In this document: positions 2,050 to 7,526 of the stretch, piece by piece
Numbering within the stretch: the stretch's first letter is position 1
How the letters are laid out: the number at the start of each line of letters is the position of its first letter
Assembly: GCA_025774865.1 (NCBI GenBank)
Contig: JALGZO010000396.1
Span: 1 to 8,660, forward strand
DNA from: a bacterium
Lineage (GTDB): Bacteria; ARS69
Reading direction: 5' to 3'
DNA length: 8,660 nucleotides
Program-made: the position numbers and the translations under genes
Notes under the pieces: model-generated
Told to the model about the DNA's origin: nothing
Databases searched by the model: none
The model's input: only the letters and a program-made list of their open reading frames with translations

Positions 2050-2630
2050 ACGAGGAGACTCTGCGCGCGCACTTCGAGGAGACCGGAGCGCTTCTCTCCG
2101 GTCACTTCCAGCTTTCGTCGGGGCTTCACTCGCCTGTGTATTTCCAGTCCGCACTCGTCTTGCAGTATGCGGACCGCGCGGAGAGGATCGGGCGCTCGCT
2201 CGCGGATCGGTTGCGCGATCTCGAGCCGGATCTGGTCGTCGGGCCGGCCCTCGGAGGGATCGTCATCGGCCATGAGGTGGCCCGCGCCCTCGACGTGCGC
2301 GGGGTCTTCACCGAGCGCAAGGACGGCGAAATGGCGTTGCGGCGCGGCTTCTCGATCCGCCGGGCCGAGCGCGTCGTGGTAATCGAGGACGTCGTCACGA
2401 CGGGCAAGTCCACCGGCGAGGCCATTCAAGTGATCCGAGCCGCCGGCGGCGATGTCGTGGGCGTCGGCGCGATCGTCGATCGAAGCGGCGGCACCGCGCC
2501 GCTCGACGTTCCGTTCCGCTCCTTGCTCAGCCTCCCGGTGGAGGCCTTCGTGCCGGCGGAGTGTCCCGACTGCCGCGCGGGAGCGCCGATCGCGAAGCCG
2601 GGCAGCCGTCCCGGAGCCGCGCGCGTCTGA
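2046..2630 (+). CDS. pyrE: Orotate phosphoribosyltransferase
   Basis: PyrE joins orotate and PRPP to give OMP. The 194-residue protein has the substrate-binding GHFQLSSGLHSPVYFQ segment (residues 19-34), the flexible catalytic loop around ERKDGEMALRRGF (90-102), and the PRPP-binding signature VVVIEDVVTTGKS (110-122). Its C-terminus contains CPDC (Cys173, Cys176) followed by KPGSR. That tail is typical of the longer Thermus/archaeal-like form of PyrE and not of the E. coli form. The start overlaps the pyrF stop as ATGA and is preceded by an excellent Shine-Dalgarno, AGGAGGTG at 2033-2040, five bases away. The gene order K-D-F-E matches the pathway, with PyrE acting before PyrF. Confidence 0.95.
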   Translation: MNEETLRAHFEETGALLSGHFQLSSGLHSPVYFQSALVLQYADRAERIGRSLADRLRDLEPDLVVGPALGGIVIGHEVARALDVRGVFTERKDGEMALRRGFSIRRAERVVVIEDVVTTGKSTGEAIQVIRAAGGDVVGVGAIVDRSGGTAPLDVPFRSLLSLPVEAFVPAECPDCRAGAPIAKPGSRPGAARV

Positions 2631-2632
2631 TC

Positions 2633-4318
2633 GTGGTTTCGAGAGCGAGCATCGTCGGGCTCACGACCCTCATCCTCGGTTGCTCGGGCGTCGACCGGGA
2701 CCAGCGCGACCCGACCGCGCTGGTCCTCATCGTGATCGACACGTTGCGGGCGGACCGTCTCGGGCACACCGGTTACGCTCCGGCCTCGACGCCTACGCTG
2801 GACTCGCTGGCGGCTCGCGGCGCGCGCTTCTCCCACGCGACCACGCCCGTGCCCACGACCCTGCCCGCCGTCACGAGTCTCCTGACCGGTCTCTACCCGA
2901 CCCGGCACGGTGTTCGGGACAACGGCCGGTTCCGGCTCGAGGCCTCCTTCGAAACTCTGGCCGAGCGTTTCCGCGCCGCCGGCTGGCGCACGGGAGCGGT
3001 GTTGGCTTCCGCGGTCCTCGAGAAGGAGCGCGGGCTCGCGCAGGGGTTCGAGAGCTGGGACGCGGACTTCGAGGGGGAGTATCCCGTCTACCGCGCCGCG
3101 CTTCGTCCCTTCGCCGAGGAGCTCGCCACGGATCGGCGACGGGCGGACGTGGTGACCGACCGCGCGCTCGAGCGGCTCCGACAACTCGGCGATTCCCGTT
3201 TCTTCCTCTTCGTTCACTACTTCGACGTCCACATGCACTACGATCCGCCCCCTCGTTTCGACGAACTCCATCCCGAGCGACCCTACGATGGCGAGGTGTC
3301 GTTCGTTGACGAGGAGATCGGGCGCTTACTGTCCTCCGTTCCCGAGAGTGCGCTCGTCGTCGTCGTCTCCGACCACGGAGAGGCACAGGGCGAGCACGGC
3401 GAGCCGCAGCACGGATTCCTCCTCTACGACGCCACGCTTCGGATTCCCATGATCGTGAGCGGTCCCGGCGTGCCCGAAGGCGCCGTGCGCGATGAAGCCG
3501 TCAGTCTCGTCGACCTGGAGCCGACGCTGGCCCGCATCTTCGAGTTGCCCTCGGACGGGACCGAGCGCGACGGGCGGGTTCTCGCTTGGACGGGGCCCGA
3601 GCCCGAAGTGGTTCCGCTGTACGCGGAGACGTTCCACCCGCTCGTCTCTTACGGTTGGAGCGAGCTGCGATCGATTCGCTCGGGCGATCGGAAACTCATT
3701 GAGGGAGCGGGGGTGAGCGAGCTTTACGACCTCGACGATGACCCGGGTGAGCTCCGCAACCTGGGGGCGGCGGCGGTGCCGCCCGCGCTCCGGGAATCTC
3801 TCGCAGTCATGGTGCGCGGCGACGACCCCGAAGAGGTTTACGCGGCCGCACACTCTGCGCCGGATGCGCAATCGAGAGCAGAGCTCGCGAGCTTGGGGTA
3901 CCTGAGCGCGCCGAGCGCCCGAACGAACGGGCCGCGTCCGCATCCGCGACGACAGCTCCCGCGTTGGGTCGCCCGGCAGCAGGCGAAGATGTACATCGGA
4001 GAGGCCGCGGTCCGCGCGACAGAAGGAGACTTCGCGGTGGCGCTGAAGCAGCTCGACCGGGCACTGACGCTCGATCCCCGCGCGGCCGACGCTCACCATG
4101 GCCGCGGGCGAGTCTACGAACACGTCGGCGAACTGGCCCGCGCGGAGCGTGACTATCGGGCGGCGATCAAGACGCAACCGGACCACCTCTCGTCGCACCG
4201 GTCGCTCGCGAGGCTCCTCACTCGCGAGGGCCGCGACGCGGAGGCCATCGCCCAATGGGAGAAGGTCCTGAAGCTCGCGCCCGAAGACGTCGAGGCGCTG
4301 GAGTTTCTGGCGGAGTAG
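2633..4318 (+). CDS. Sulfatase-like (alkaline phosphatase superfamily) lipoprotein with C-terminal TPRs
   Basis: This is a 561-residue predicted lipoprotein. From GTG 2633 it has a short hydrophobic signal ending in ILGC, so Cys17 would be lipidated; in-frame starts further upstream would bury this signal inside pyrE. A sulfatase-type domain follows: the metal-binding IVIDTLRADRLG (Asp36), the nucleophile region PTTLPAVTSLLTG, the VHYFDVHMHYDPP core (His195, Asp198), SDHGE (Asp247, His248) and QHGFLLYD (His260). The sulfatase CxPxR motif reads TLPAV: Thr76 replaces the Cys and Val80 the Arg, so no formylglycine can form. A Thr-nucleophile phosphatase or phosphotransferase-like activity is possible. 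Residues 453-561 form about three TPRs reaching the C-terminus. The gene lies two bases after pyrE with only a distant GGAG (2613-2616), so translation is probably coupled. The substrate is unknown, and a role in pyrimidine metabolism is not implied. Confidence 0.85.
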   Translation: MVSRASIVGLTTLILGCSGVDRDQRDPTALVLIVIDTLRADRLGHTGYAPASTPTLDSLAARGARFSHATTPVPTTLPAVTSLLTGLYPTRHGVRDNGRFRLEASFETLAERFRAAGWRTGAVLASAVLEKERGLAQGFESWDADFEGEYPVYRAALRPFAEELATDRRRADVVTDRALERLRQLGDSRFFLFVHYFDVHMHYDPPPRFDELHPERPYDGEVSFVDEEIGRLLSSVPESALVVVVSDHGEAQGEHGEPQHGFLLYDATLRIPMIVSGPGVPEGAVRDEAVSLVDLEPTLARIFELPSDGTERDGRVLAWTGPEPEVVPLYAETFHPLVSYGWSELRSIRSGDRKLIEGAGVSELYDLDDDPGELRNLGAAAVPPALRESLAVMVRGDDPEEVYAAAHSAPDAQSRAELASLGYLSAPSARTNGPRPHPRRQLPRWVARQQAKMYIGEAAVRATEGDFAVALKQLDRALTLDPRAADAHHGRGRVYEHVGELARAERDYRAAIKTQPDHLSSHRSLARLLTREGRDAEAIAQWEKVLKLAPEDVEALEFLAE

Positions 4319-4325
4319 GCGCGGC

Positions 4326-4715
4326 TCAGAGTGCGAGCTTCCGCGCGATCCCGAGACGCCCGCCGAGCCACGCGCCGAGTGGTCCGAGCGCGAGAAGCGT
4401 GATCGGATACCACATCGGCAGCGACGAGTACTGCCTCATCGACACCAAAGCCATGACGAGCATGAACCCCATGAGGCCCAGCACGTGTTTCGCTTCGGCG
4501 TGTCGGGCGATGGAGGCGGTGACGAATCCCCCCACGATCGCGGCGACGAAACCGAACGTCAGGATCAACAGGATCACCGGAGGCGGCGGCATCGCGCCGG
4601 GGACCTCGGCCGACCAGAAGGAGCCGATCGTCGCGAACAGGATCAGCACGAGGAAAGACATCGCGAGGTATCCCGTGAGCACCGCGAGCACGCTTCGTAC
4701 CATGGCTGAGAGCAT
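4326..4715 (-). CDS. Small four-helix membrane protein, function unknown
   Basis: This is a 129-residue hydrophobic protein that I do not recognise as a named family. Four membrane segments are visible at about residues 9-31, 47-69, 77-93 and 101-119, joined by short loops. One is a proline run (PPPP, 43-46) and another is basic and His-containing (RHAEAKH, 71-77). The frame stays open to a TTG at 4772, but that extension is hydrophilic and has no ribosome site. ATG 4715 is preferred, with a weak GAAG upstream, and ATG 4703 (125 residues) is nearly as plausible. The gene converges on the sulfatase-like gene with only seven bases between the two stops. It is divergent from the S2P-like gene, so it is probably a single-gene transcript. 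Confidence 0.75.
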   Translation of the reverse strand: MLSAMVRSVLAVLTGYLAMSFLVLILFATIGSFWSAEVPGAMPPPPVILLILTFGFVAAIVGGFVTASIARHAEAKHVLGLMGFMLVMALVSMRQYSSLPMWYPITLLALGPLGAWLGGRLGIARKLAL

Positions 4716-4863
4716 ATCAGCTTCGATCGGCGTACGCCCGTGTCGCGATCGCTGGATGAGCGTCTCGTCCAAAGTAGATTGGAATACCCCCCGGGAGCCG
4801 ATTCAGGGAAGAGGGCCAGGGCCCGATGAGGGAACGAGACCCCCTTCGCCACCCGGAGACCGT
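4716..4863. promoter_or_regulatory. Divergent intergenic control region
   Basis: These 148 bases separate the small membrane gene (-) from the S2P-like gene (+), so both promoters should lie here. Two perfect palindromes are visible: GGCGTACGCC at 4729-4738, just upstream of the minus-strand start, and GCGATCGC at 4745-4752. They could be operator half-sites, but short GC palindromes are common in DNA this GC-rich. A -10-like TAGATT at 4775-4780 on the plus strand lacks a convincing -35. A GGAG at 4855-4858 serves as the Shine-Dalgarno of the plus-strand gene. Confidence 0.4.
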
Positions 4864-5841
4864 ATGTTCCGCTTCCGACTGCTTCCGCGCCTCGCACAGC
4901 GCCTGCTCTCGGAGCGGTCGATCGCGGCGGGGAGCCTCGGCGGAGTTCCGGTACTCTTCCATCCGAGCGGAATCTACCTGGCTCTCGTGCTTTTCGTAGC
5001 GCTTGCCGTCCACGCTTCGCCGGCCCTGCTGCGCTTCGCATCACCCGTTGCCCGAGTCGCAGCGGCCGGAGTCGTCACCGTTCTCTTGTTTTCGTCGATA
5101 CTGGCCCGCGAATGGGTGCGCGCGCTCGCCGCCGAGCGCGAGGGCATTCCGAATCGCGGCGTCGTCTTCATCCTGCTCGGCGGCTTCGCGATCCTGGAGC
5201 GCGAACCGAACCGACCGGGCGCCGAGTATCGCATCGCGATCGCCGGTCCACTCGCGAGCGTGGTGATCGCCCTCGGTTTCACGGCGGTCACCGTGGTCTG
5301 CGCGAATGTCCCCGGCGGTTCTCAGTTCGTTCCGCTCGCCGGAGTCCTCGCGCTCGCGAACACCGTGCTGGCGTCGCTCAGTGCGTTCCCGGCATTGCCG
5401 CTCGATGGCGGCCGCGTCCTCCGCTCCATGCTCTGGCGATGGAACGGCAGCCGCGACCGTTCATCGTGGCTCGCCGCCCGGGCCAGTCGCTGGTTCGCGC
5501 TCACGTCGATCGCGGCGGGCGCGGCTCTCCTCGGACAGGGACACGCGATCGGGATCGTGGCGGTGCTCACGGGATGGTTCGTGGGGGAATCCGCGAACGC
5601 CGCGGAAGAGGAAGCGAGGCTCTCCCTCGCGGCTCAGGCCTCGGGCGGCGAGCTCCCTGTGGTCTCACGGTCGATGGGGAGGCCGGGGGAGCCGGAAGCG
5701 GCCGCCGGTAGGCTCCAGCTCACGAACGCGAGGACCAGGAACACGACGATTCCGGGAAGGCTTCCCTCGACGCCGAAGGCTCCGCCGGTCCAGAGCTCCG
5801 AACCCGTCGACGAGACCTCGAAGAGAGCCACGTCCAGCTGA
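4864..5841 (+). CDS. Site-2-protease (M50)-like membrane protein lacking zinc ligands; probable pseudoprotease
   Basis: This 325-residue multi-pass membrane protein follows the S2P/SpoIVFB-like M50 layout. It has an N-terminal GxPVLFHPSG strand-and-helix, a helix carrying the protease motif, ILLGGFAILEREPNRPGAEYRIAIAGPLAS, and a second catalytic region ending in ALPLDGGRVLRSMLW. The active site is degenerate. Where M50 enzymes have HExxH it reads REWVR (Arg82, Glu83, Arg86), and where they have NxxPxxPLDGG the Asn is Ser173; Asp181 remains. Both zinc-binding His are gone, so it should not be an active metalloprotease. The start is ATG 4864, with GGAG at 4855-4858 five bases upstream. The M50-like part ends near residue 256, and the last 69 residues (5634-5841) are low-complexity and lie antisense to the CPBP gene, as if a stop codon had been lost. 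A scaffold or substrate-binding role is inference. Confidence 0.82.
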   Translation: MFRFRLLPRLAQRLLSERSIAAGSLGGVPVLFHPSGIYLALVLFVALAVHASPALLRFASPVARVAAAGVVTVLLFSSILAREWVRALAAEREGIPNRGVVFILLGGFAILEREPNRPGAEYRIAIAGPLASVVIALGFTAVTVVCANVPGGSQFVPLAGVLALANTVLASLSAFPALPLDGGRVLRSMLWRWNGSRDRSSWLAARASRWFALTSIAAGAALLGQGHAIGIVAVLTGWFVGESANAAEEEARLSLAAQASGGELPVVSRSMGRPGEPEAAAGRLQLTNARTRNTTIPGRLPSTPKAPPVQSSEPVDETSKRATSS

Positions 5842-6572
5842 AAGCCGCTCACGGCGACCGACCAGACCATCGCGGTGAAGACGTTCCAGCCAGCGTGAAC
5901 TCCGCACACCATCCCGAGATCGCCGCGGGCGCGCGCCAGCCCGGCGAGTGCGAGCCCCGCGAGGAACACTCCCAGCAGCCCGCTCGACCCGATGTCGGGG
6001 TTGCCCCCGTGGATCACCGCGAAGGAGCCGGCGAGGAAGATCGCGGCGATCGGGAAGGTCAGGGCGGCGGAGATGTCCCGCTGCGCCGGGCCGCGAAACC
6101 CGAACTCCTCCCTCGCGGCTTCGAAGAAGAGAGTGACGAGCACCGCCAGCACCCGGGTCGGTTGTTCGCGCCAGGCGAACGAAACGGAGTCGATCCGGAG
6201 GGCGCCGACCAGGAAGAGCGGGGCCAGCACGATCGTCGCGGCGATGGCGCCGATGGCGAACCCCCGACCCCACTCCCGGAACCACGGACGGTCGAGCCAG
6301 AGCAGACGCTTCGGTCGCGCGGCGCCGTACCCGGTGCGGGAGTACAGGAGAACGGCGCCGGCCGAAACTGCGAGCGTCGATCCGGAGAGTACCGCCGGCC
6401 AGAAGGCTCCCTCCGGATTTCCCGAGAGGAGCCCGGGAAGCCCACCCCCGGGAAGCGCCTCCCCCAGGAGGTCCCGGGCGACGACCGGGATGAAGTAGAC
6501 GAGGAAGACGAATCCGAGGCCGCGCGCGACGAGGGTCAGGCGGCGGACAATGTCGGCGAGGTCGAATCTCAT
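5634..6572 (-). CDS. CPBP-family intramembrane metalloprotease (Rce1/Abi-type)
   Basis: This 312-residue multi-pass membrane protein has all three CPBP (CAAX protease and bacteriocin-processing) motifs intact: EEFGFR (Glu155, Glu156, Arg160), FAVIHGG (His188) and HAGWN (His226, Asn230). These form the glutamate/histidine active site in the Rce1 fold. About eight hydrophobic segments are visible, the last near residues 272-290, followed by a short polar tail. ATG 6572 is the first start, with only a weak GGA upstream that lies inside an inverted repeat. In bacteria the family includes prenyl-protein-type proteases, bacteriocin self-immunity proteins and proteins of unknown role, and the substrate here cannot be told. 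Its last 69 codons, which include the final membrane segment, overlap the end of the S2P-like gene on the other strand. Confidence 0.9.
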   Translation of the reverse strand: MRFDLADIVRRLTLVARGLGFVFLVYFIPVVARDLLGEALPGGGLPGLLSGNPEGAFWPAVLSGSTLAVSAGAVLLYSRTGYGAARPKRLLWLDRPWFREWGRGFAIGAIAATIVLAPLFLVGALRIDSVSFAWREQPTRVLAVLVTLFFEAAREEFGFRGPAQRDISAALTFPIAAIFLAGSFAVIHGGNPDIGSSGLLGVFLAGLALAGLARARGDLGMVCGVHAGWNVFTAMVWSVAVSGFQLDVALFEVSSTGSELWTGGAFGVEGSLPGIVVFLVLAFVSWSLPAAASGSPGLPIDRETTGSSPPEA

Positions 6573-7038: not shown

Positions 7039-7059
7039 CCGCGGGCGTGCGAATTCTCC

Positions 7060-7088
7060 TTCAACTCGTTCGTCGGGTAGGGTATCTT
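7060..7088 (+). promoter_or_regulatory. Weak sigma-70-type promoter candidate for the HARE-HTH gene
   Basis: TTCAAC (7060-7065) and TATCTT (7083-7088) are separated by 17 bases, matching 3/6 and 4/6 of the consensus hexamers. Transcription would begin near 7095, giving a leader of about 45 bases before the TTG start. The -10 overlaps the left arm of the inverted repeat at 7085-7126. Confidence 0.25.
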
Positions 7089-7126
7089 TTCCGTTCCTTC
7101 GTTTCGTCCAAAAGTAACGGGAAAGA
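7085..7126 (+). repeat. 11-bp inverted repeat ending one base before the HARE-HTH ribosome site
   Basis: Bases 7085-7095 pair with 7116-7126 over 11 positions with one G-U wobble, enclosing a 20-base loop. The right arm ends one base before the AGGTGG ribosome site. If transcribed, the stem could affect access to that site; as DNA, it is a plausible operator overlapping the candidate -10. Either would allow control of the DNA-binding protein that follows. Confidence 0.4.
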
Positions 7127-7127
7127 A

Positions 7128-7133
7128 AGGTGG
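7128..7133 (+). promoter_or_regulatory. Ribosome binding site that fixes the TTG start
   Basis: AGGTGG lies six bases before TTG 7140 and is the only strong Shine-Dalgarno in this frame. The earlier in-frame GTG at 7047 has none and would add 31 residues lacking conservation-like features. Confidence 0.7.
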
Positions 7134-7139
7134 TCTGCC

Positions 7140-7526
7140 TTGCCTCGAGTCACGTCCCCACGGTTGAAGAGACTCCGCGCCAAACGCGAGAAGGTTCTGC
7201 GAGGGATTCGGGCGGTGGATCGGGAGATCGGCCAAATCGAGCGGAAGCTCGGTGTGAGCCGGAGCAAACGGCGGTCCGCGACTCTGCTGCGGAAACCGAA
7301 CGCCCGCCGCTTGAACGAACTGACGGTGAAGGACGCCGTCGTGAAGCTCCTCCGGAAGAAAAGGCGGCCGATGCACTACAAGGACATCACGAGAGCGCTC
7401 CTGGATGAAGGGATCTACCGGACCAAGAGCAAGAGTTTCCTCTCGACCGTTGCGATCTCGATCATGCGGGACAAGCGCATCAAGCGTGTCGAGCCGGGTG
7501 TGTACACTCTTCGGAAGGGCGTCTAG
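7140..7526 (+). CDS. Small basic coiled-coil protein with a HARE-HTH-like winged-helix domain
   Basis: This is a 128-residue, strongly basic protein. Residues about 8-38 are Arg/Lys-rich with heptad-like hydrophobics (LKRLRAKREKVLRGI...IERKL), suggesting a short coiled coil for dimerisation. Residues 61-124 match the HARE-HTH pattern (HB1/ASXL/restriction-endonuclease helix-turn-helix): a helix TVKDAVVKLL, the PMHYKDITRALLDEGIY core, a helix with FLSTVAISIMRD, and the closing wing RIKRVEPGVYTL. HARE-HTH domains are linked to DNA binding and occur both alone and fused to nucleases or RNA polymerase delta subunits; here the domain stands alone. The TTG start is chosen for its ribosome site. The gene converges on the next one with 24 bases between stops. 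It may be a nucleoid-type or regulatory protein, but its target is unknown. Confidence 0.82.
   Translation: MPRVTSPRLKRLRAKREKVLRGIRAVDREIGQIERKLGVSRSKRRSATLLRKPNARRLNELTVKDAVVKLLRKKRRPMHYKDITRALLDEGIYRTKSKSFLSTVAISIMRDKRIKRVEPGVYTLRKGV

Follow-up and report, generated by a model that had tools for sequence, protein, structure and literature searches.

The window analyzed here, the whole stretch of 8,660 nucleotides of contig JALGZO010000396.1, comes from an uncultured bacterium and contains a site-2-protease (S2P)-like gene of the M50 family in which both zinc-binding His residues are replaced by Arg and a conserved Asn is replaced by Ser. As a reading of the DNA this finding is real, and it is the better anchored because an orthologue whose site is intact could be identified by synteny. 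Catalysis in M50 enzymes depends on the zinc-site residues; from this established chemistry, the protein is probably unable to hold zinc in the usual way and catalytically dead. We tentatively propose, at just under an even chance, that the gene encodes a lineage-specific S2P pseudoprotease which derives from an active, vertically inherited M50 protease and keeps the substrate-binding beta-loop. That the gene lost its function recently is almost as probable as a binding pseudoprotease. The features of the window were as follows.

4864 to 5841, + strand: M50/S2P-like gene (translation, PF02163, homologue alignment, structure model, and Foldseek against mjS2P and SpoIVFB)
4864 to 5619, + strand: S2P core of the M50-like gene, residues 1-252
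Residues 253-325 of the M50-like gene, + strand: low-confidence tail beyond the S2P core
5107 to 5121, + strand: REWVR replacing HExxH, with R82 (CGC), E83 (GAA), and R86 (CGC) (DNA; all other homologues have His at the two positions)
5152 to 5196, + strand: membrane-reentrant beta-hairpin, strands 97-103 and 106-111, Gly106-Gly107 kept; in S2Ps, the loop on which the substrate docks (DSSP of the model; function of the SpoIVFB loop taken from PMC11486902)
5380 to 5382, + strand: Ser173 (AGT) replacing the Asn of NxxPxxPLDGG (DNA, homologue alignment, and orthologue codon)
5398 to 5418, + strand: P179-L-D181-G-G-R-V185, in which Asp181, at the position of the third zinc ligand, is retained (translation and alignment)
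5634 to 6572, - strand: CPBP/Rce1-like membrane protease gene with the EEFGFR catalytic motif intact (PF02517, alignment with the orthologue in genome G003, and synteny)

The M50-like open reading frame (ORF) runs on the + strand from an ATG at 4864 to a stop at 5841 and encodes 325 amino acids by translation. The earlier note had given the span 5101-5436, which lies in the gene and corresponds to residues 80-191, but the gene itself covers 4864-5841; the intact frame that it claimed was borne out, the ORF being unbroken over this whole length. Pfam assigned the protein to Peptidase_M50 (PF02163) with an E value of 3.6e-10; the score of 40 bits exceeds the curated cut-off, which is 27.2. The G+C content at the three codon positions of residues 1-252 (0.72/0.54/0.80) resembled that of neighbouring genes, and codon periodicity was normal. 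A promoter and terminator scan around the gene gave nothing above chance.

The M50-like ORF and the CPBP ORF are convergent and share 208 bp (window 5634-5841), and the tail of the M50-like ORF is antisense CPBP sequence. A similar M50/CPBP overlap is present in G002, a genome of the sister genus (L037, M50 stop at 5041). The likeness of the tail (residues 253-325) to other genomes, being antisense to the CPBP gene, was rejected as evidence for an M50 tail, because the same match was found in G003, where this locus lacks an M50 gene.

At the catalytic site, the DNA at 5107-5121 reads CGC GAA TGG GTG CGC, encoding R82-E83-W84-V85-R86, and the HExxH of active S2Ps is missing. The conserved Asn of NxxPxxPLDG is also missing, with Ser173 in its place, while the LDG feature with the third zinc ligand Asp is present as PLDGG, in which D181 is coded GAT. 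The catalytic motif is thus lost, as in an S2P pseudoprotease. The earlier note had described the same replacements of HExxH and Asn, which were read directly from the DNA; the other homologues all have His, His, and Asn at the aligned positions. Its view that the M50 landmarks are well kept also agreed with the translation and alignment, which showed Gly-Gly at 106-107, GP at 128-129, and PLDGGRVLR with Asp181. Each change is consistent with the single A-to-G step suggested there, because the syntenic orthologue in G002 uses CAC, CAC, and AAT at these codons.

The distribution of the altered site was analyzed among homologues. A total of 386 genomes were searched, 66 of which had matches with an E value of 1e-12 or lower; with the matches of a less strict search added, 77 distinct homologues were compared. 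HExxH was intact in all 76 other homologues covering the segment, syntenic orthologues included, and Asn was present in 75 of 75 covering that position. In a MAFFT set of 69 full-enough sequences, His, His, and Asn were found in 68, the window protein being the sole exception, and Glu83 and Asp181 were invariant across the set. The upper 95% bound on motif loss in this homologue group is about 4%. Scans of genome contigs for closer relatives recovered only the G002 orthologue, and a scan of viral contigs gave two distant homologues, both with HExxH intact. The earlier note had left room for a REWVR/Ser combination shared among homologues and had held that intact HExxH in all close homologues, as the mark of a private mutation or sequencing error, would refute its reading. 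As far as the sampling reaches (one genome of its own genus), the close homologues do all carry intact HExxH, and on these alignments the combination is private to this genome at the sampled depth.

The gene neighbourhood was compared in the phylum sample, which consists of five genomes, one per genus, with the window genome as the sole member of its genus. In G002 (contig JALGZR010000024.1) a syntenic orthologue with 46% identity carries HEIAH, and the gene order is M50-CPBP-HARE-TPR, with the downstream genes as in the window. In G004, from another genus, a partial orthologue (5' half, ended by the contig end) carries HEGAH and adjoins pyrK-D-F-E, which is also present in the window; there the M50 gene directly follows pyrE, unlike in the window. 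Because the syntenic G002 and G004 orthologues have intact sites, the ancestor was, judged by these motifs, active, and the gene was vertically inherited in place. G003, a complete genome of the same family (listed as 100%), has pyrD-F-E and CPBP-HARE-TPR, but pyrE is followed by the CPBP gene with no M50 gene in the interval, and its only M50 elsewhere is of the RseP type; the gene is therefore dispensable in this family. On contig C25 of G003 (L120 5195-5283), pyrE and the CPBP gene lie less than 100 bp apart. A compensating close active relative in the window genome (92.65% complete, 785 contigs, 8.3% contamination) was looked for and rejected: because the other M50 proteins of the assembly are of the RseP type (HEWGH) and one distant type (HEAAH), the M50-like gene does not duplicate a closely related active gene in the assembly.

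The chief rival explanation is that the gene is a recently inactivated, dispensable protease gene, in which selection on catalysis was lost and the active site drifted while the frame is not yet broken; we regard this as a serious possibility, somewhat below an even chance. The intact HExxH of all the other homologues and the missing gene in G003 both speak for it. To compare loss at catalytic and other sites, both orthologues (window and G002) were aligned to an outgroup-only homologue profile. The profile had 26 non-catalytic columns with at least 90% conservation, of which 6 were lost in the window protein and 5 in the G002 protein; at the five catalytic columns the window protein had lost 3 and the G002 protein none. 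A neutral spell should strike catalytic and structural sites alike, but 3 of 5 catalytic columns were lost against 2 of 21 comparable non-catalytic columns kept by G002 (p about 0.02-0.04, up to 0.07). Fisher's test gave p = 0.034 at the 90% cut and 0.06-0.07 at other conservation cuts, and, given 2/21, a loss of at least three of the five catalytic residues is expected with a probability of 0.0075 (plug-in) or 0.023 (uncertainty allowed). The excess loss at the catalytic site in these alignments is suggestive, not overwhelming. The intact frame, the normal codon use, and equal Tajima counts also stand against recent inactivation. A long decay of the gene appears unlikely, because the conserved non-catalytic positions have been retained about as well as those of the active orthologue.

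Rates of change were compared as well. Tajima-type unique differences against outgroups numbered 18.8 for the window and 18.4 for G002, and neighbouring genes of the two genomes evolved at a similar pace. Maximum likelihood (ML) terminal branches on the outgroup-profile alignment were 1.03 for the window and 0.56 for G002 (ratio 1.78, interval 0.98-3.4), and the ratio on the MAFFT alignment was 1.86 (interval about 1.0-3.1). A query-anchored alignment gave a ratio of 0.53, which was set aside as biased towards the query because the MAFFT and outgroup-profile alignments gave 1.86 and 1.78 and the Tajima counts and identities were equal. Two of the three alignments thus make the window branch about 1.8 times as long as the G002 branch, with intervals touching 1. 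This would fit relaxation, and with it recent inactivation, but the outcome changes with the alignment. The pairwise dN/dS with G002 (NG86 0.51/1.29) was not used, as it is near saturation and dominated by the time before the loss.

These results bear in two directions on the earlier description of a maintained pseudoprotease that is not decaying. As that description implies, the zinc site is lost, the reading frame is unbroken, and conserved non-catalytic positions are retained, but all homologues reached are intact and the gene is absent from its syntenic place in G003. The label is plausible. Against a pseudoprotease are also the occurrence of the dead form in one genome only, with no conservation across species, and the missing gene in the corresponding interval of G003, a complete genome.

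The structure prediction proposed in the earlier note was made from a four-sequence alignment (mean pLDDT 70.8, with low confidence past residue 262). The model has the core fold of S2Ps, helices with a membrane-reentrant beta-hairpin, and its only significant PDB matches by Foldseek were mjS2P (3b4r, E 5e-9) and SpoIVFB (8vjl, E 5e-5). With these PDZ-less M50 proteins the M50-like protein has in common the Pfam family, the fold, the reentrant hairpin, the PLDGG Asp ligand, and the Glu of HExxH; it differs in having Arg for both zinc His residues and Ser for Asn, and in that no CBS domain was found. Neither a CBS nor a PDZ domain was matched by Pfam in the M50-like protein, nor in its G002 orthologue. 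Group III S2Ps have a C-terminal CBS domain and no PDZ domain (PMC10202637), and the M50-like protein, with no CBS match, does not fall in this group.

In SpoIVFB, substrate is captured largely by beta-sheet augmentation on the reentrant loop, and the inactive E44Q protein still makes a complex with its substrate (PMC11486902). In the model, the docking elements appear to be retained in the M50-like protein. Because these elements remain while catalysis is probably lost, the likeliest function, if there is any, would by analogy be binding without cutting. According to the proposed pseudoprotease reading, a six-helix membrane protein of the S2P fold, descended from an active, vertically inherited M50 protease, would in this lineage have given up zinc binding, through the change of both His residues to Arg, together with the Asn adjacent to the active site. 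Transmembrane or pro-segments of substrates may dock by extending the sheet of the retained hairpin with a further beta-strand and then pass into the cleft, where they would be held, protected, or escorted without being cut. As a guess, the R82 and R86 side chains may stand in for the charge of zinc through salt bridges to Glu83 and Asp181. A stronger version, in which the pseudoprotease is fixed in a whole bacterial lineage, the two Arg residues supply the charge of the zinc, and the protein regulates by binding substrates, possibly protecting membrane segments against the active intramembrane proteases of the genome, seems unlikely.

Peptidase databases may list inactive M50 homologues. A phrase search of open-licence literature found no report of a bacterial S2P pseudoprotease. 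The plant chloroplast protein EGY3 is likewise an S2P homologue without a working HExxH; one paper describes it as the sole pseudoenzyme with homology to S2Ps, and it shows that a physiological role is possible for an S2P pseudoprotease (PMC9355673; EGY3 also PMC12389704). EGY3 is a thylakoid protein conserved across the plant kingdom, whereas the M50-like gene is known here from one bacterial genome, whose assembly contains no closely related active paralogue. The iRhoms (inactive rhomboids) offer an analogy in mode of action, a fold that binds transmembrane segments without cutting them (PMC11266112), but their fold and family are unrelated. If the pseudoprotease reading is true, a bacterial pseudoprotease that has a syntenic active enzyme as its source and lacks a close active paralogue would give a before-and-after view of an intramembrane metalloprotease becoming a binding protein; if the gene is merely being lost, the case is an ordinary one.

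Glutamate-type intramembrane proteases (Rce1/CPBP) exist, one of this family is encoded next door, and Glu83 and Asp181 are kept, so that the protein might still be a protease, with another metal arrangement or a metal-free Glu83/Asp181 mechanism. This is very improbable: two zinc ligands are Arg and the Asn is lost, we found no precedent, and a review notes that S2Ps of several species are less active when HExxH or LDG is mutated (PMC10202637). An assembly, binning, or sequencing artefact, which the fragmented and partly contaminated assembly might suggest, is just as hard to credit, as three separate in-frame substitutions exactly in catalytic codons form an implausible error pattern (sequencing error at all three is very unlikely), the gene order of the contig fits that of the family, and pyrE is single copy in the genome.

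Other genes of the window were also recorded. Between pyrE and the M50-like gene lie a sulfatase-plus-TPR gene (2561-4318) and a small - strand ORF (4326-4772) with no Pfam match and, by eye, hydrophobic stretches. Downstream of the M50-like gene, the best conserved gene encodes a HARE-HTH (HB1/ASXL) protein (7047-7526), which is 66% identical to its counterpart in G002 and 49% to that in G003.
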